Positions 4,927 to 31,885 of a stretch of 36,727 nt of DNA are shown here, piece after piece. This stretch comes from a virus. The position numbers and the translations under genes are program-made. The stretch covers positions 1 to 36,727 of the IMG/VR virus record IMGVR_UViG_3300047322_000893; one strand, written 5' to 3'. Below the pieces are notes generated by a model, which saw only the letters and a list, made by a program, of their open reading frames with translations, was not told the DNA's origin and searched no databases. Numbering within the stretch: the stretch's first letter is position 1; the number at the start of each line of letters is the position of its first letter.

Positions 4927-5781
4927 GTGCTGTTTGACCCAATGGAATGGGTAGAATGGGCTTATCTACCACCGGATTTAATGGATTATATGAACTTTAA
5001 AGAGTTTCTTACGAAGGAAAGTGTGATTATTGCGGCGCTGCCAGTATTCGGATATGTAGTAGCAATAGCATATGAGTACGGATATGCAGTTTATTTCGGA
5101 TATCCACTCTCATTAATCGTGGTGGATCTAAGGATGACCCTTACTTCGATGATTTTTGGAGTTCTCTATATATATGTGCTATTGAAGGTGTTCGATTCTA
5201 TAAGTGTCATGTCTTTGGGGGAGGGAAATTTCGCAAAATTTCTAAGGGTAATGCTCCCTAATTATCTTATGGCTGGGGTTCTTGTTTTTGCTTCTGGCTT
5301 CAGTGGCGCCTTCTTCAAGTTTGGTATATCTCTAAGTGCTATATATACAGTGATCTATGGAGTTGGTGTTTTGATAGATGCGAGAAAGATGGGAATTTCT
5401 GCTGCTGTAGATAAATTGGCAAAAGAAGAGGAGCCTAAACCATCCGTAGCGAAAGTCAGATATAGAGGTCAGGTTTTAATTAATCTTTTTAATGAGTATG
5501 GGATTATGGTTCTCATAGTCCTCGGGCTTGTATTTGGGGCGGGAAGATTGGCGGCCACTTCCAAAAATCAGTTTTCTTCCTTTGAGATAGATAACGAGAC
5601 TTATGCAATCGTGGCAATTTATGCTGACAGCGTCATTGGGGCAAGGCTGAAGGATGAGGCGATCGTTGAGGAGTTCGCTGTCATATCAAAGGGCAACGAC
5701 GCAATGACGAAAGTTGGCCTGCTGAATCTGAAAAAGCCAAAAGTTAAAGAGAATGTATCTCCTGTTCCGATTCCGTATTAA
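4927..5781 (+). CDS. AT-rich polytopic membrane protein (putative lysogenic-conversion moron)
   Basis: About 284 residues if started at GTG 4927; ATGs at 4942, 4981 and 4990 are alternatives, and no upstream signal decides. Hydrophobic segments lie around residues 33-50, 58-92, 108-150 and 192-208, giving roughly five or six membrane spans. A charged loop about 158-180 and a soluble C-terminal domain of about 75 residues follow. Codons are clearly more A/T-ending than in the phage genes around it, a sign of separate acquisition. It sits between the leftward operator and the convergent repressor gene, the position where many phages keep genes expressed in the lysogen, such as exclusion proteins. 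No family is recognised, so exclusion is a hypothesis. Confidence 0.75.
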   Translation: MLFDPMEWVEWAYLPPDLMDYMNFKEFLTKESVIIAALPVFGYVVAIAYEYGYAVYFGYPLSLIVVDLRMTLTSMIFGVLYIYVLLKVFDSISVMSLGEGNFAKFLRVMLPNYLMAGVLVFASGFSGAFFKFGISLSAIYTVIYGVGVLIDARKMGISAAVDKLAKEEEPKPSVAKVRYRGQVLINLFNEYGIMVLIVLGLVFGAGRLAATSKNQFSSFEIDNETYAIVAIYADSVIGARLKDEAIVEEFAVISKGNDAMTKVGLLNLKKPKVKENVSPVPIPY

Positions 5782-25634: not shown

Positions 25635-25693
25635 CGCCCCGACTGTCGGGGCGTTTTTGTTTGTGCAAATGACCGCGCCGGGCGCGGTCTTTT
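25635..25693 (+). terminator. Two tandem hairpins before the sheath gene
   Basis: CGCCCCGA-CTG-TCGGGGCG followed by TTTTTG (25635-25658). Then GACCGCGCC-G-GGCGCGGTC followed by TTTT (25671-25693). Both look like intrinsic terminators. The sheath gene's TCTGGAGA follows within 6 bases of the second. Confidence 0.8.
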
Positions 25694-25712
25694 GCTTTCT
25701 GGAGAATGCTAC

Positions 25713-26879
25713 ATGAGTGGATTTTTTCACGGTGTTACGACGACGTTGGTCGACACCGGTGCGCGGACCATTGCCTTGCCGTCGTCGTCGATCATTGGTC
25801 TGTGCGATACCTTCACCCCGGGCATCCTCGGCGGCGGTACCGCCAAAGCGGGTGACCTGGTATTGATCACCTCCGAGCGCGAAGCCATTGCCGCGTTCGG
25901 TGCTGACTCGGCCATTACCCGGGCGGCTCAAGCGATCTATGTCCGCGCCAAGGCGGTGATCGTCGCGGTCGGCGTGCCCAAGCTCGAAGATGCAGCGCTG
26001 CAAACCTCGGCCATCATTGGCGGTGTTTTGGCCTCGGGTCAGCGCACCGGCCTGCAGGCCTTGCTCGACGGCAAGAGCAAGCACAACGCTCAACCGAAAC
26101 TGTTGATCGCCCCGCGCCATTCGGCGACCCAGGCCGTGGCCACGGCAATGGATGGCCTGGCCGGCAAGCTGCGCGCCATGGCCATCGTCGATGGCCCGAA
26201 CACCACCGACGAGGCGGTGATGGCCTACGCCAAAAACTTCGGCAGTAAGCGGGTGTACCTGGTCGATCCGGGCGTCCAGTACTGGGATACCGTTCTCAGT
26301 GCCACGGTCGACGCTCCGGGTTCGGCCTGGGTCGCAGGGCTTTTTGCCTGGACCGACGCGAACTACGGTTACTGGGCCTCGCCGTCGAACAAGGAGTTTG
26401 TCGGCATCACCGGCACCACGCGCCCGATAGAGTACCTGGACGGCGACGAGACCTGTCGGGCCAACCTGCTCAATGGCGCGAACATCGCCACGATCGTCCG
26501 CGATGGCGGGTATCGCCTGTGGGGCAACCGCACCTGTTCCAGTGATGCGAAATGGGCGTTCGTTACCCGCGTGCGCACCTGCGACATCCTCATGGATGCG
26601 ATCCAGGCCGGGCACAAGTGGGCGGTCGACCGCTCGATCACCAAGACCTACGTCAAGGAAGTGACCGAAGGCCTGGATGCGTTCATGCGCGACCAGAAAA
26701 ACGCCGGGGCGATCATCAATTTTGAAGTGTTCCCGGACACCGAGCTCAACACTGCCAGCCAGATTGAGCAGGGCAAGGTGTATTGGCGCATTCGCTTCAC
26801 TGACGTGCCGCCGGCAGAAAACCCGAACTTCCTGATCGAAGTCACCAATCAGTGGCTGACCGAAGTCCTCGACGCTTAA
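25713..26879 (+). CDS. Contractile tail sheath protein (gpFI)
   Basis: 388 residues from ATG 25713 (MSGFFHGVTTTLVDTGARTI), after CTGGAGA. The family features are the N-terminal 'GV.v.e...g.r.i....ts.iG.vg' (ALPSSSIIGLCDTFTP), WVAGLFAWTDANYGYWASPS, the 'N.l..NGi.ti....g..lWG.RT' motif (LNGANIATIVRDGGYRLWGN) and the C-terminal NFLIEVTNQWL. It forms the contracting outer tube of a P2/R-pyocin-type tail. Its length is close to P2 gpFI. Confidence 0.95.
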   Translation: MSGFFHGVTTTLVDTGARTIALPSSSIIGLCDTFTPGILGGGTAKAGDLVLITSEREAIAAFGADSAITRAAQAIYVRAKAVIVAVGVPKLEDAALQTSAIIGGVLASGQRTGLQALLDGKSKHNAQPKLLIAPRHSATQAVATAMDGLAGKLRAMAIVDGPNTTDEAVMAYAKNFGSKRVYLVDPGVQYWDTVLSATVDAPGSAWVAGLFAWTDANYGYWASPSNKEFVGITGTTRPIEYLDGDETCRANLLNGANIATIVRDGGYRLWGNRTCSSDAKWAFVTRVRTCDILMDAIQAGHKWAVDRSITKTYVKEVTEGLDAFMRDQKNAGAIINFEVFPDTELNTASQIEQGKVYWRIRFTDVPPAENPNFLIEVTNQWLTEVLDA

Positions 26880-26891
26880 GGAGCACGCCAG

Positions 26892-27395
26892 ATGATTCCT
26901 CAAACTTTGTACAACACCAACCTGTTCGTCGACGGGGTCAACTTTGCCGGCGACGTACCGAGCCTGACCCTGCCCAAGCTGACCACCAAAACCGACGAGT
27001 ACCGGGGCGGTGGCATGGCCGGTGCCATCGAGATGGACCAGGGCCTGGAAAAAATGGAGGCGTCCTTTGTCACCAAGGGCGTGCGTCGCGAGTCGCTCAA
27101 GCACTTCGGTCTGGCCGATGGCTCGGCGTTCAACGCGTCGTTCCGTGGCGCCTTTCGCGGGCACAAGGGCACCGTCACCGCTGTGGTGGCCACCTTGCGC
27201 GGCCTGTTGAAAGAGGTGGACCTGGGTGACTGGAAAGCCGGTGATCCGGCGGAAATCAAACACGCCATCGCGCCGGTTTACTACAAGCTCGAAATCGACG
27301 GTCGGGTGATGTACGAAATCGACATGATCGCCGGGGTCCAAGTGATCGATGGCAAAGACCAGCTCGCCGAAGTGCGCTCCGCGCTTGGCCTTTAA
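26892..27395 (+). CDS. Tail tube protein (gpFII)
   Basis: 167 residues. MIPQTLYNTNLFVDGVNFAG, then LTLPKLTTKTDEYRGGGMAG and MYEIDMIAGVQVIDGKDQLA match the P2 gpFII tube family ('n.f.dG....g....v.lP.l......y.gaGm.gpi.v..G...me'). The tube is the rigid inner channel driven into the host when the sheath contracts. It sits 12 bases after the sheath gene. Confidence 0.95.
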   Translation: MIPQTLYNTNLFVDGVNFAGDVPSLTLPKLTTKTDEYRGGGMAGAIEMDQGLEKMEASFVTKGVRRESLKHFGLADGSAFNASFRGAFRGHKGTVTAVVATLRGLLKEVDLGDWKAGDPAEIKHAIAPVYYKLEIDGRVMYEIDMIAGVQVIDGKDQLAEVRSALGL

Positions 27396-27409: not shown

Positions 27410-28009
27410 ATGACCATGCAAACCGCTGCAAATCTGCCGACCTGGTTGTTGCTTAATACCGATAATGCCGTCGTCACACTCACGCGCCCCAGCGAAGTCA
27501 ACGGCGTGAAGGTGGACTCCTTGATGCTGCGGGCGCCGCTGGTGCGGGAGGTCCGCGCCGCAGATCGGGCAGCCGGTGACGATGATGAGCAGCGCGAGCT
27601 GCAGTTGTTCGCCAGCCTGGCCGAGGCGGGCATCAAGGATCTGGAGGGCCTGAAGGTGGTGGACTATCGCCGCCTGCAGGCCGCCTATTCGCACATGGTG
27701 CCGCACGCGGATTATTCGAAATCACTCCCTGCGTGGTTGTCGGTCACCGCCGAAAACGCCGTGATCAGTCTGTCGCGTCCCAGCGAGATCAATGGCGTGC
27801 AGGTCGACAAAATGACCCTGCGTTCACCCACGGTGCGCGAAGTGCGGGCGGCTGATCGCGCGGCCGGTGGCGACGACGAACAGCGCGAACTGGTGCTGTT
27901 CGCGGACCTGGCCGGCGCCGCGATCACCGATCTGGAGGGCCTGAAGGTGGTGGACTACAACCGCCTGCAGGCCGGCTATTTTCGCCTGGAGCAAGACGAC
28001 GGGGTTTGA
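27410..28009 (+). CDS. Tail assembly chaperone with two tandem TAC domains
   Basis: 199 residues made of two homologous copies. Copy 1 is residues 9-93 (LPTWLLLNTDNAVVTLTRPS to VVDYRRLQAAY); copy 2 is 106-190 (LPAWLSVTAENAVISLSRPS to VVDYNRLQAGY), a period of 97 residues. By hand count about 70% of aligned residues are identical, and REVRAADRAAG and DLEGLKVVDY are exact. Each copy alone fits the usual 90-110-residue phage tail assembly chaperone (gpE/TAC) that keeps the tape measure soluble while the tube grows. A doubled version is unusual. It lies between tube and tape-measure genes, the canonical place. Confidence 0.85.
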   Translation: MTMQTAANLPTWLLLNTDNAVVTLTRPSEVNGVKVDSLMLRAPLVREVRAADRAAGDDDEQRELQLFASLAEAGIKDLEGLKVVDYRRLQAAYSHMVPHADYSKSLPAWLSVTAENAVISLSRPSEINGVQVDKMTLRSPTVREVRAADRAAGGDDEQRELVLFADLAGAAITDLEGLKVVDYNRLQAGYFRLEQDDGV

Positions 28010-28025
28010 TCCGGGGGTGATGAAG

Positions 28026-28121
28026 ATGGTGGCGAAACGACTCGCGGCGGACACCGGATTTTCCGCTGCTGAGATTCAGTCGATGCCATTTTCCGAGATG
28101 GTTTGGTGGCTCACGGATTGA
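28026..28121 (+). CDS. Small GpE'-like ORF after the chaperone (31 aa alone, or a frameshift extension)
   Basis: In the frame two back or one forward from the chaperone, ATG 28026 reads MVAKRLAADTGFSAAEIQSM and ends with FSEMVWWLTD. This resembles the short P2 GpE'-type tail ('f....ld.msl.el..w') made in many phages by ribosomal frameshifting. GGGGGTGA (28013-28020), close to the consensus ribosome binding site, gives an independent start at 28026 (ATG 28020 is also in frame). The frame stays open upstream into the end of the chaperone gene, where GGG GTT TGA (28001-28009) could allow a shift. It is 39 bases before the tape measure. Confidence 0.6.
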   Translation: MVAKRLAADTGFSAAEIQSMPFSEMVWWLTD

Positions 28122-28159: not shown

Positions 28160-31030
28160 ATGGCGAACAAACTTTCCCTCGGGTTGGTGATCGGTGGAGC
28201 CGTCAGCCCTACGGTCGGCGCCGCGTTCAATGAGGTGACCGGGCGCATCAAGCGTTTGGAGGCGGAAGGGAACAAGGCGCGAATGCTGCAGCGCACGATT
28301 GGCGACACCATTCGCCTGCGCGATGAATGGAAAAAGGCCCACGACAGCGGCGCCGCTGGTGCGTCGAAGCTGCTGGGTCGCTTGAATTCCAACCTCGACA
28401 GCCTGAAAAAACAGGGTATCGAAGTCGGCCGGCTGGACAAAGCGTACCGATCCCTCGGCCAGGCGGCGAGCAAGGCCGAGTTCAAGGCCAAGGGGTACCA
28501 GCAGATCGATGCCGGCACGGCGGGGATGAAAAGCACGGTCGGTCAGGCCGTGGCCGGTGTGGCAACGGTGGGTATTGCGACCAAGGTCAGTGCCGACTTC
28601 GGGGCCATCGTCCGCGACATCGCGATCAAGGCCGGCATTGCCAACGATCCAAAAGAAAAACAGATGGCGCAGACGATCATCGAGACCTCGCGCGACACCG
28701 GTATGGCGCGCAATGACGTCGCCGACGTGGTCAACCAGTTGGTGGGCGCCGGAATGGATCTGGCCAAGGCGCTGGAGTACGCGCCGGTCGCGGCCAAGTT
28801 TGCCGTGGGTCAGGGTTCGAGCGGTGCCGACACGGCGAAGATGATCAATGCCCTCGGGCAGAACGCCAAGATTACCGACGCCAAACAGATGCAGCAGGCG
28901 CTGGAAGCGATCGCCTTTCAGGGGCAGGCCGGTAGTTTCGAGGCCGTCGACATGGCGCGTTGGTTCCCCGAGCTGCTGTCGAACATGGGCAATTTGAACA
29001 TCACCGGCATGGACGCGGTGACGCAGCTGGGCGCCATGCTCCAGGTGCAGATGAAGACTGCCGGCGGCGCCGATGAGGCGGCGAACAACCTGAAAAACTG
29101 GATGGGCAAGATCGGATCAACCGACACGGTGGAGGCCTACAAGAAGGCCGGTATCGATTACAAAGGCTCGATGCAGACCGGTTTGCAGAACGGACTATCG
29201 ACCCTGGAATCGAGCATGGCCTTGGCGCAGAAATACATCCAGGCCACCGACCCGAAACGTGCTGCGCAGATGGCCGAAGCCACGGCGAAGATCAGCCAGG
29301 AGGCGGATCCAGAAAAGGCTAAGGCGATGATGGCGTCGCTCGAAGAGGCCCTGCGTACCGGCGACCTGTTCGCCGACATGCAGGTCAAGGCGGCGCTCTC
29401 GGCGTACCTGCAGAACAAGGCGTTGTACAGCCAACTGAAAAACGATTCGCGTGAAGCGTCGGGCATCCTCGACAAAAACCTCGCCGAGCGGCGGGAAGCC
29501 TCGTCGCAGAAGTGGGCGGAGATGGCGCAGTCGATGGATGACGCCCTGCGCAGTGTCGGCGATGCCCTGCGGCCGGTGACCGATACCGTGGCCGAGGGGT
29601 TGACCAAAGTCACCAAAGGCATCACCGCGCTGTCGGACAGTTCGCCCGGGGTGGTCACCGGTATCGCGACGGTCGGCGGTGGCTTCCTGGCGCTGAAGAC
29701 GTTGTTCAGCTCGTACAAGATCGGCAAGGGCTTGTTCAACCTGGCGCGCGGGACCCTCGGTAAAGGCAAGTCTGACGAGGTGCAGAAAGTCTTCATCACC
29801 AACTCGCTGAAAGGTGATCGTGTCGTCCCGGGGGCGGAGCTCAAGAGCAAAGCGGGTAAGGCCTTGTCTTTGGTCGAGACGGGGCTGAAGGCGGTGGCAG
29901 CAGTCAAGGGCGCGTCTGAAGTTGGCGAGGCGGCTGATGGACAGGAGGGCAAGAAAGCCGGTGGTTTTGACTTGGTGTCGACCGGTCTCAAGGTGGTGTC
30001 GCTCGCTAAAGAAGCCAGCGAAGACGGTGATGTGCAGGCCGGACTAGAAGACGGCGCTGTCAGGAAGGTGTTTGTGGTCAACGCTGCCGCCATGGGCGGC
30101 GGAGGTGGACCGGTTGAGCGTCGGCGCCGTGGTCGTGGGCCCGCGCGACATTCCTCTCGGCGGCGTCGGTCTGCAGTGCCGCCACGCCCGGGAGGTCCAT
30201 CACGTCCACCGGTCCCCACGCCAAGACCGGCTGTTCCAGCACCGCGTCCACCCGTGTCACTACCTTCAACCGGCGGAGTATTGGCCAAGCTTGGGGTCGT
30301 GGCGGAAACGGTGGGGAAGGTCGGCAAGCTGGGCAAAGTGATCCCCGGCGGTTCGCTGATAGAAGCCGGTGGCATGGCATTCGAAACCTACCAGAACGCC
30401 AAGACCCGGCAGGAAAAGGCCGAAGGTTACGGCGAGGCGGCGGGTTCGCTGGCGGGCACCATGGCCGGTGCCGCCGCCGGGGCGGCCATCGGTTCGGTGG
30501 TCCCCATCATCGGTACCGCCATTGGCGGCATGGTCGGCGCGTACCTGGGTAGCCTGGGCGGGACTGCCTTGGGCGGTGTTGCGGGTAAGTCCTGGTTCGG
30601 CAGCGAAGAGCAAAAGCCAGCCACTGCGGTAACGCCTTTGCTGATGGCGCCTCGGCCGGGGCCGGTGGTGCCAAGTCTGGCCAGTATGGGACGTTCCTTC
30701 AACGGGGCGAACGAGCCTGGTGCATTGCTGATGGCAGGTCACGCCGCACCACCCAGCCCAGCGTTGGGTGATGTCGCGCGCGCGTTGGCGGCGCCAAACC
30801 CGACCAAGCCGGCGGCGGTGGTGATTCAGTCGAAAGAGCCTGGGAAACCAGTACCCACCAAAGTGGATCAGCAGTTTAAGTACTCCTTGAACATGCCAGT
30901 CACCGTGCAAGGCGATGTCAAAGATCCACAACGATTGGCGCAAGACCTGATGCCGTACATGCAGCGGATGATGGCCGATGCCGCGAAACAGAGTATGTCC
31001 AACCAACTGTTCGATGAACCCCACTTGTAA
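28160..31030 (+). CDS. Tail tape measure protein
   Basis: 956 residues, the largest structural gene; its length sets tail length. The N-terminal part is helical and coiled-coil rich (NEVTGRIKRLEAEGNKARML). The TMP-core family region follows (about 140-420, with VVNQLVGAGMDLAKALEYAP and FQGQAGSFEAVDMARWFPEL). A low-complexity Gly/Arg/Pro linker lies about residues 648-704. A glycine-zipper membrane-type segment is at about 755-805 (GAAAGAAIGSVVPIIG, then IGGMVGAYLGSLGG), likely to enter the host membrane during DNA delivery. It overlaps no neighbour; gpU follows 9 bases later. Confidence 0.95.
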   Translation: MANKLSLGLVIGGAVSPTVGAAFNEVTGRIKRLEAEGNKARMLQRTIGDTIRLRDEWKKAHDSGAAGASKLLGRLNSNLDSLKKQGIEVGRLDKAYRSLGQAASKAEFKAKGYQQIDAGTAGMKSTVGQAVAGVATVGIATKVSADFGAIVRDIAIKAGIANDPKEKQMAQTIIETSRDTGMARNDVADVVNQLVGAGMDLAKALEYAPVAAKFAVGQGSSGADTAKMINALGQNAKITDAKQMQQALEAIAFQGQAGSFEAVDMARWFPELLSNMGNLNITGMDAVTQLGAMLQVQMKTAGGADEAANNLKNWMGKIGSTDTVEAYKKAGIDYKGSMQTGLQNGLSTLESSMALAQKYIQATDPKRAAQMAEATAKISQEADPEKAKAMMASLEEALRTGDLFADMQVKAALSAYLQNKALYSQLKNDSREASGILDKNLAERREASSQKWAEMAQSMDDALRSVGDALRPVTDTVAEGLTKVTKGITALSDSSPGVVTGIATVGGGFLALKTLFSSYKIGKGLFNLARGTLGKGKSDEVQKVFITNSLKGDRVVPGAELKSKAGKALSLVETGLKAVAAVKGASEVGEAADGQEGKKAGGFDLVSTGLKVVSLAKEASEDGDVQAGLEDGAVRKVFVVNAAAMGGGGGPVERRRRGRGPARHSSRRRRSAVPPRPGGPSRPPVPTPRPAVPAPRPPVSLPSTGGVLAKLGVVAETVGKVGKLGKVIPGGSLIEAGGMAFETYQNAKTRQEKAEGYGEAAGSLAGTMAGAAAGAAIGSVVPIIGTAIGGMVGAYLGSLGGTALGGVAGKSWFGSEEQKPATAVTPLLMAPRPGPVVPSLASMGRSFNGANEPGALLMAGHAAPPSPALGDVARALAAPNPTKPAAVVIQSKEPGKPVPTKVDQQFKYSLNMPVTVQGDVKDPQRLAQDLMPYMQRMMADAAKQSMSNQLFDEPHL

Positions 31031-31039
31031 GGAGCACCC

Positions 31040-31885
31040 ATGGCCTACATGGAACAGCTACAGGCCGGCCTGAAGTACCTGGTTGAAGCGGGGGAAACCG
31101 GGCGTCGCAGTGCGGATGGCATGCTCGGTCCGGTTAACGGGGCGATCCGCGAAATCACCGGCGCGGCATCCGAGCTGGAAAACATCCCGTTCGTGGGGCC
31201 GGCGATAGGCGCCAAGCTGCAGCGAGTGATGCGCGGAGTCGATGCGGCACAGGCCAAGGTCGGCCAGGTGGTGGCCACCTACGGCCGGGCGACCCGTGCC
31301 GCCGCCGAGGTGCAGGAACGCATGGGGACGTTAAAGGAGCAGGCGGCCAAGGCATCGACGGCGATCAATTCGATTGCCGGCAAGGTCAGTCCATCCCTGG
31401 CCAACATCGTGCCGACCAGTGCGTTTGCCATCGATGGCACGCCGGCACCGGAGGCCGTGAAGCCGTTTCCGCACCTGCTGATCCTGCAGCCGCAGGATCC
31501 CAAGGCCCAACCGTACTACTTCAACTTGGATACGGCGGCCTTCGACGAGCTCACGCGCTCGAGCGAGTTTCGCTGGGCCTCGCAAGAACGCCTGTCGCGT
31601 CGGCCGGCGCAGCAAGCGGTCGGCATCGGCGAAGAAAAAATAAGCCTGAAAGGTACGATCTATCCCGGCTTCAAGGGCGGGCTCAAGCAGCTCGACACCT
31701 TGCGCAGCATGGGCGCGCAACTGAAGCCGTTAACCCTGACCACGGGCTATGGCGATGTCATGGGTACCTGGTGCCTGAAGAGCATCGCGGAAGAGCAGGG
31801 CGCGCTGATGCACGGCGGGATTCCGCGTAAACAAGGGTTCACTCTGGAGTTTTTGCGCTATGGCGACGACATGCAGAACGTCTGA
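31040..31885 (+). CDS. Tail protein gpU with long N-terminal extension
   Basis: 281 residues. The C-terminal half (about 140-281) is the P2 gpU family: HLLILQPQDPKAQPYYFNLD, RRPAQQAVGIGEEKISLKGT, IYPGFKGGLKQLDTLRSMG and the ending FTLEFLRYGDDMQ. P2 gpU is about 160 residues. Here an extra 130 residues at the N-terminus form Ala/Gly-rich helices (AAQAKVGQVVATYGRATRAA, VQERMGTLKEQAAKASTAIN). gpU caps the head-proximal or baseplate end of the tail. The extension may contact the tape measure encoded just before. Start ATG 31040 follows AAGGAG. Confidence 0.88.
   Translation: MAYMEQLQAGLKYLVEAGETGRRSADGMLGPVNGAIREITGAASELENIPFVGPAIGAKLQRVMRGVDAAQAKVGQVVATYGRATRAAAEVQERMGTLKEQAAKASTAINSIAGKVSPSLANIVPTSAFAIDGTPAPEAVKPFPHLLILQPQDPKAQPYYFNLDTAAFDELTRSSEFRWASQERLSRRPAQQAVGIGEEKISLKGTIYPGFKGGLKQLDTLRSMGAQLKPLTLTTGYGDVMGTWCLKSIAEEQGALMHGGIPRKQGFTLEFLRYGDDMQNV

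Follow-up and report, generated by a model that had tools for sequence, protein, structure and literature searches.

This phage probably encodes a P2 gpE-type tail assembly chaperone (TAC) of a P2-like phage with kin among Pseudomonas prophages, which appears to have been fused in frame to a covalent tandem dimer with the E/E+E' frameshift kept; we give this reading a probability of about 0.78. The window, that is, the whole 36,727-nt stretch of viral DNA analysed here (IMG/VR record IMGVR_UViG_3300047322_000893), carries the tail genes in the order sheath, tube, E, tape measure, U, X, D, and the chaperone gene sits between the tube (FII) and tape measure (T) genes, as in the gpE type (Table 1). 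Pfam PF10109 (Phage_TAC_7), whose description reads 'E, or 41 or 14' and which has protein E among its names, matches the protein in two stretches (124 bits, cut-off 25), and NCBIfam gave no match to the chaperone. These two matches, together with the FII, tape measure, U, X, and D neighbours, thus indicate a gpE-type TAC of a P2-like tail module. A sequence-only reading had described two tandem chaperone domains of roughly 70% identity with a long identical DNA stretch around the DLEGLKVVDY codons, and both features were borne out. Residues 9-93 share 61 of 85 positions (71.8%) with residues 106-190, and the DNA of the two copies is the same at 189 of 255 (74%), with the longest identical run, 29 nt, at the DLEGLKVVDY codons. 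Self-comparison returned a single direct-repeat pair, 27434-27701 and 27725-27992 (74%), and shuffled second halves reached at most 21% identity to the first half (2000 ungapped trials). The end of the C-terminal domain, RLQAGYFR, resembles the end of the single-domain relatives.

Table 1. Positions in the window of the chaperone gene, its parts, and its neighbours
Feature	Positions	Strand	Basis or remark
FI-type tail sheath protein (context)	25692..26879	+	Pfam
FII tail tube protein (context)	26892..27395	+	Pfam
gpE-type tail assembly chaperone ORF, 199 aa, two tandem PF10109 domains	27410..28009	+	ORF listing, Pfam, repeat search, HMM
TAC_7 domain, N-terminal, aa 9-95	27434..27694	+	HMM; predicted strands and four helices
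29-nt identical stretch, copy 1 (DLEGLKVVDY codons)	27638..27666	+	Identical to 27929-27957
Linker, aa 96-105	27695..27724	+	Without the first copy's stop and shift site
TAC_7 domain, C-terminal, aa 106-192	27725..27985	+	HMM
29-nt identical stretch, copy 2 (DLEGLKVVDY codons)	27929..27957	+	Identical to 27638-27666
Predicted shift site GTT TGA, E stop and entry to the +1 frame	28004..28009	+	NTT-TRA in 99/99
E' extension, +1 (= -2) frame, 37 codons and stop, ...FSAAEIQSMPFSEMVWWLTD	28008..28121	+	Translation, codon analysis
Tape measure protein, 956 aa (context)	28160..31030	+	Profile matches
gpU-like tail protein, 281 aa (context)	31040..31885	+	Profile matches

The two-domain gene is widespread. 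All 80 loci kept from IMG/VR (the best 80 of 150 relatives) were two-domain, in a search whose two-domain query favours such genes in the ranking. Species genomes contributed 20 loci, all in Pseudomonas, of which 14 were two-domain, five single-domain, and one a broken remnant. With the window and four further loci from Pseudomonas genomes (L135, L147, L148, and L149), the 80 IMG/VR loci and the 14 genome loci make up a family of 99 places, whose two domain blocks fall into 93 different DNA sequences and 86 different protein sequences; the same strain may be behind some of the IMG and genome records. An assembly artefact, named in the sequence-only reading as what would refute the duplication, is ruled out by the 98 other places with the same two-domain gene in IMG/VR and Pseudomonas, and the duplication stands. 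A survey of 398 Pseudomonas genomes at a threshold of E 1e-25 gave matches in 97 of them, with at least 23 full-length places in 21 genomes and at least 90 half-length places; at most eight candidates were scored per genome, and two-domain status by HMM refers to the fetched loci. The full-length places comprise 20 of the window's family in 18 genomes, plus those in G111, G125, and G766. In a class-wide survey, three of 369 genomes matched at E 1e-5, and the sole full-length match was the already known G002. One- and two-domain forms thus both occur in Pseudomonas. L101 of Pseudomonas neuropathica (about 5001-5330) is a prophage remnant: its N domain breaks off at a junction that runs out of frame into the C domain, and little is left of the tape measure gene that follows; L144 is likewise a broken relative.

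The closest comparison is offered by the single-domain E proteins of Pseudomonas prophages and of an R-pyocin-like record (L096-L100, L266, L267, L269, and L102), which share about 50-70% identity with one half of the window's protein. Their E' tail is homologous to that of the window's family, but they have one domain in about 100 aa, whereas the window's protein has two in 199 aa. All of them carry an NTT-stop site, as in the window's family, except L102, which has a longer E end and a stop after CAT. In P2, E has 91 aa and E+E' 142 aa, with a -1 shift at TTTTTTG (PMC3091744). P2 gpE shares with the window's protein PF10109, the position between tube and tape measure, and the pairing of a short form with a long one that ends in a small E' tail; however, it has one domain per chain, and its E' lies in the -1 frame after T6G, whereas the E' of the window's family lies in the +1 (or -2) frame after NTT-TRA. 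The more distant phages Mica and ECO1230-10 have a single-domain E with a -1 tail. Lambda gpG/gpGT would work alike, the short form coating the tape measure and the long form recruiting the tube, but it is single-domain, as is HK97 gp13, and its shift is -1. The earlier statement that usual chaperones have one domain therefore needs to be narrowed: it fits P2 E and the nearest relatives, but the two-domain form is frequent in Pseudomonas and occurs in known phages, and a single domain per chain is customary for the gpE type without defining it.

Both copies have been maintained. Median dN/dS between the two subclades of the family was 0.216 for the N domain and 0.187 for the C domain, and within subclades it was 0.06-0.10 for either domain (about 300 sampled pairs each), values that show purifying selection on both; the 99 genes were chosen as two-domain and are uninformative on how often a domain is lost. 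These values bear on the foremost alternative, a neutral or near-neutral fusion that worked as well as two chains and that later drift made hard to undo, so that no functional gain is needed. We regard it as a serious possibility, though it falls short of even odds. Within Pseudomonas, single- and two-domain genes occur side by side, share their type of shift site, and overlap in the length of their tape measures, and two-domain forms recur in other lineages, as neutral fusion would allow; the purifying selection on both domains (about 0.2 between and 0.06-0.10 within subclades) argues against it, although a neutral start is still compatible with these values. We read the complete tape measure ORF after 80 of the 99 family genes; it encodes 838-1080 aa in 78 cases and less in two (595 and 731 aa), and those after 23 single-domain genes encode 520-1151 aa, with lengths taken from the first Met of the open frame. 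Behind the two-domain genes L260 (G111), L261 (G125), and the divergent L268 (G766), the tape measures have 837, 872, and 554 aa, the last being the whole frame. The one- and two-domain ranges thus overlap widely; we dropped a link between domain number and tape measure length, and the proposal that the fused dimer matches a modified tape measure gained no support.

Another alternative is that labour is divided between the halves, with the N domain binding the tape measure or neighbouring chains and the C domain keeping the ancestral role and presenting E'. In a 68-domain tree built on 87 columns, which resolves deep forks poorly, the C halves of the family group with support of 99/97 and the N halves with 95/84, the latter group including L146_N, which would suit such a division. 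So would the lower dN of the C half and the four of 87 positions that are fixed differently between the halves at 90% or more. However, the fixed differences are few; three of the four (R/N, A/G, and S/F) lie near the domain end, where they may merely follow from the fusion point, and the N group is weaker in later trees. We consider divided labour unlikely on this evidence, if only slightly more so than neutral fusion. When closer single-domain relatives were added, L146_C joined L269 (97/84), L146_N left the N group, and the N halves formed two unresolved sets; without L153 and L268, the N group had 77/84. Forcing L146_C to join the C halves of the family was rejected (p 0.0135), and forcing L146_N to join the N halves was not (p 0.46). 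The halves of L153, which lie on long branches, are sisters in both the 68-domain tree (98/89) and the tree with closer relatives (92/87), and the halves of the distant two-domain family described below are far apart.

Most likely, the window's family arose from one duplication before its two subclades split. The trees suggest at least one other, separate two-domain lineage, and perhaps three or four; L146, L153, and L268 are further two-domain genes of Pseudomonas whose tail lies in the +1 frame, and one or more of them seem to have been duplicated independently. A recent copy or wholesale gene conversion is out, as the halves of both subclades group by half and not by genome. At the 29-nt stretch, KVVDY stands in both halves of the window's subclade, and the usual readings in the other subclade are KLTDY, KLVDY, or KLADY for the N half and KLVDF for the C half; a short local gene conversion is possible there.

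The frameshift arrangement is retained behind the fused gene. In the window, the E' frame is open directly behind the E stop, encodes ...FDPGVMKMVAKRLAADTGFSAAEIQSMPFSEMVWWLTD, and ends at 28121. NTT-TRA stands at the end of E in all 99 genes of the two-domain family, with CTT (47), GTT (45), ATT (4), or TTT (3) before the stop, which is TAA in 55 and TGA in 44. The E' tail measures 37 codons in every one of the 96 loci long enough, the other three being cut by contig ends. Read in the +1 frame, the tail has a median dN/dS of 0.108, compared with 2.5 and 4.1 in the other frames (573, 446, and 360 usable pairs, respectively, of 600 sampled), which points to translation of E' in that frame. In 27 of the 96 loci, the first 14 codons past the E stop, the only ones counted, include neither ATG nor GTG nor TTG, so that E' is unlikely to be a separately started gene in this family. 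These data show E' to be conserved as coding sequence behind a fixed NTT-TRA site; slippage itself, its direction, its product ratio, and the ring geometry proposed below we infer. NTT makes up 3.4% of the codons in the 18 forward ORFs of the window, which is a partial control only, as a conserved Phe (TTT) in the E' frame partly dictates NTT. Pfam gave nothing of use on the E' peptides, which matched PHROG 10636, of unknown function, at E 0.0009 and 0.003.

The site varies more among the relatives. L266 and L269 have a TAG stop, so that across the family and these relatives the +1-frame residue varies (D, N, or S) and a stop is retained. NTT-TRA was present in 51 of 60 rows from other relatives with a +1-frame tail, found by a W[WL]L motif in the tail, with the remnant L101 included and some genes counted twice. 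The nine exceptions, CTG TAA (4), GAA TAA (2), CGC TAA (2), and CAT TGA (1), indicate that NTT-TRA is not universal outside the window's family. In L153 (G125), the site is GAA TAA and an ATG lies in the E' frame just before the E stop, and E' may be made there by restart instead of slippage. A GC-rich candidate hairpin, GCGGCGGA...UCCGCUGC, lies at 28044-28069, about 35 nt past the E stop of the window, and similar sequences occur in L030 and L085. The folding z-scores of the 120 nt around and behind the site, a region that is coding, were -2.4 (window), -1.3 (L030), -0.9 (L085), and -3.5 (L097), values that we do not take as evidence of a stimulatory RNA.

The simplest account of the site is that the P-site tRNA slips +1, from NTT to TTT, with the stop waiting in the A site. 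A Shine-Dalgarno-like sequence lies three bases upstream of the prfB shift site, and none was seen by eye near the present site in the 60-nt consensus before the stop, which ends in ...GAC GAC GGG NTT TRA. The likeness to the +1 site of prfB (CUU UGA; PMC10885494) lies in NUU followed by a stop and in the +1 slip expected there. UGA, however, is not required here, with TAA in 55 and TGA in 44 of the 99 genes and TAG in L266 and L269, and this use of several stops implies that RF2 autoregulation is not what is conserved. According to the PRFect paper, every CUU-stop +1 case in the RECODE data is prfB (PMC10885494), and in the literature searched, with few subscription papers in it, no tail chaperone was described as having a +1 NTT-stop site. 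A review states that tailed phages use -1, -2, or +1 shifts for the short and long pair, and that P2 and its relatives shift two- to threefold more often than lambda (PMC5009743). As the direction differs among tailed phages, the -1 shift of P2 is not required for membership in this group. The frame relation of E' is equally compatible with a slip of -2, known for phage Mu (PMC5009743), which would lead into the same frame. Such a slip is improbable, as the stop directly follows NTT in 99 of 99 genes and may, with the relatives, be TGA, TAA, or TAG, as expected of a +1 slip at a slow stop, and as no repeat of the right register was seen at the site by eye.

Two-domain chaperones are not unique to the window's family. 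A PF10109 search of 12 of the genomes behind our loci revealed further ORFs with two matches, mostly belonging to one distant family (L136-L140 and L162-L241, with L152 added from the genus survey), in which all 80 loci kept as the best of 301 IMG/VR relatives were two-domain. The last 66 nt of E contain TTTTTTA (85) or TTTTTTG (1) in all 86 members examined, and the -1 frame, counted from 60 nt before the stop, is open for more than 50 codons in 80 of them. Among the six shorter frames, the limiting stop lies before the slip site in L229 and L239, an intact tail lies behind it in L136, and L199 runs to the contig end; the remaining two are L172 and L188. Relatives of this family occur in 14 of 50,697 phage records, including Vibrio phage VP882, Halomonas phage phiHAP-1, and Aeromonas phages; nine of the 14 match over 80% of the query, and the annotations are tail, phage-related, or hypothetical protein. 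VP882, phiHAP-1, and one Aeromonas phage have T6G and a -1 tail, and PF10109 matches the VP882 protein in two stretches and those of phiHAP-1 and the Aeromonas phage in one, the second half. PHROG 166 (201 positions) aligns almost end to end with the VP882 protein, which means that the two-domain form is already in databases; we found no description of a tandem two-domain TAC in the literature searched, which left out most subscription papers. Like the window's family, the VP882/phiHAP-1 family has two tandem TAC_7 domains, the same gene position in the annotated phages, and a retained frameshift signal, but its domains are very divergent, its E' tail is another one, its site is the P2-like -1 site T6A/T6G, and, by the domain tree, its duplication is not the same as that of the window's family. 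The suggestion in the sequence-only reading that dimer fusion might take over from the frameshift in setting the short-to-long ratio is contradicted by the sequences and has next to no probability left, as the shift site stands in 99 of 99 genes with E' complete in 96 (three cut by contig ends), and T6A or T6G recurs in 86 of 86 members of the second family, with T6G in VP882, phiHAP-1, and the Aeromonas phage.

The two halves look alike in the best predicted structure. The best AlphaFold2 model (34 sequences) had a mean pLDDT of 85.7 and a pTM of 0.77, and in it three strands (3, 12, and 9 residues) precede four helices in each half; the pLDDT of the other four models was 80.5, 65.6, 49.7, and 48.1, so that the fold rests on the best two. 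The predicted fold of one half may resemble HK97 gp13: chain 2ob9_B aligned with 79 residues of the C half at Z 5.8 and rmsd 3.5, a middling score (Z below 8), with the next row at 2.6. Foldseek found no PDB match at E 0.001 (HK97 chaperone, E 1.8), and a sequence search of the PDB gave no match up to E 1. In the viral structure library BFVD, the top match, a tail assembly chaperone of 193 aa, covered both halves (TM 0.64, 15% identity), and the second was the Mica chaperone. Among the weak BFVD matches were several uncharacterised phage proteins of 200-270 aa and a small number of baseplate hub proteins of the T4 type. Comparing profiles with T4 gp26 and gp51, one side being a single sequence, gave nothing, and we left this lead. 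A 2022 paper reportedly, by its title, identifies the TAC genes of T4.

Researchers have found that TACs form rings or spirals of neighbouring subunits, and that HK97 gp13 subunits dock their N terminus into the one that follows (PMC9603447). The E-E protein may take the places of two neighbouring subunits in such an assembly, a step that leans on other TACs, whose contacts differ among themselves. We propose that a tandem duplication joined two copies of the chaperone domain in one reading frame; that most ribosomes would stop at the end of E and give E-E of 199 aa; and that E-E would coat the tape measure, each chain supplying two adjacent, covalently joined subunits of the chaperone ring or spiral. 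A minority of ribosomes would slip +1, from NTT to TTT with the stop in the A site, and give E-E-E' as the minor form, whose tail would recruit the tail tube, as in lambda gpG/gpGT and as is thought for P2 E/E+E'. The duplication would thus alter the number of domains per chain, and the two-product switch would not be replaced.

We regard the two-domain E with its retained frameshift as a modest variant of a known chaperone, with a prfB-like +1 site that tolerates any stop as the secondary interest. A broader and more tentative conjecture, somewhat less likely to be right than wrong, is that P2-like TACs became covalent tandem dimers more than once, with the frameshift kept in each lineage examined, because advancing by two subunits along the tape measure is advantageous; in the Pseudomonas clade, the ratio would be set by a prfB-type +1 slip at any waiting stop, used for virion assembly and not for RF2 sensing. 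Tail length and assembly in long-tailed phages depend on the ratio of short to long chaperone. The natural series of one- and two-domain forms within Pseudomonas, alike in their type of shift site and overlapping in tape measure length, allows a direct approach to the number of chaperone subunits that a tape measure carries and to how the ratio is controlled. The earlier reading, now corrected, would have sent the search after a frameshift-free chaperone.

Further observations concern the neighbouring proteins and other TAC-like proteins. In the gpU homologue, Pfam GpU covers residues 159-276, and the first about 155 residues are an extra part also found in PHROG 4094. The last third of the tape measure contains an Arg/Pro-rich low-complexity stretch, and residues 766-798 gave a weak glycine-zipper match (PF05433) below the cut-off. 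TAC-like proteins have also been noted in Burkholderia, where they are described as antifungal; Bm_67459 was assigned to Phage_TAC_7, and Bg_9562 forms spiral filaments (PMC9603447, PMC12029163).
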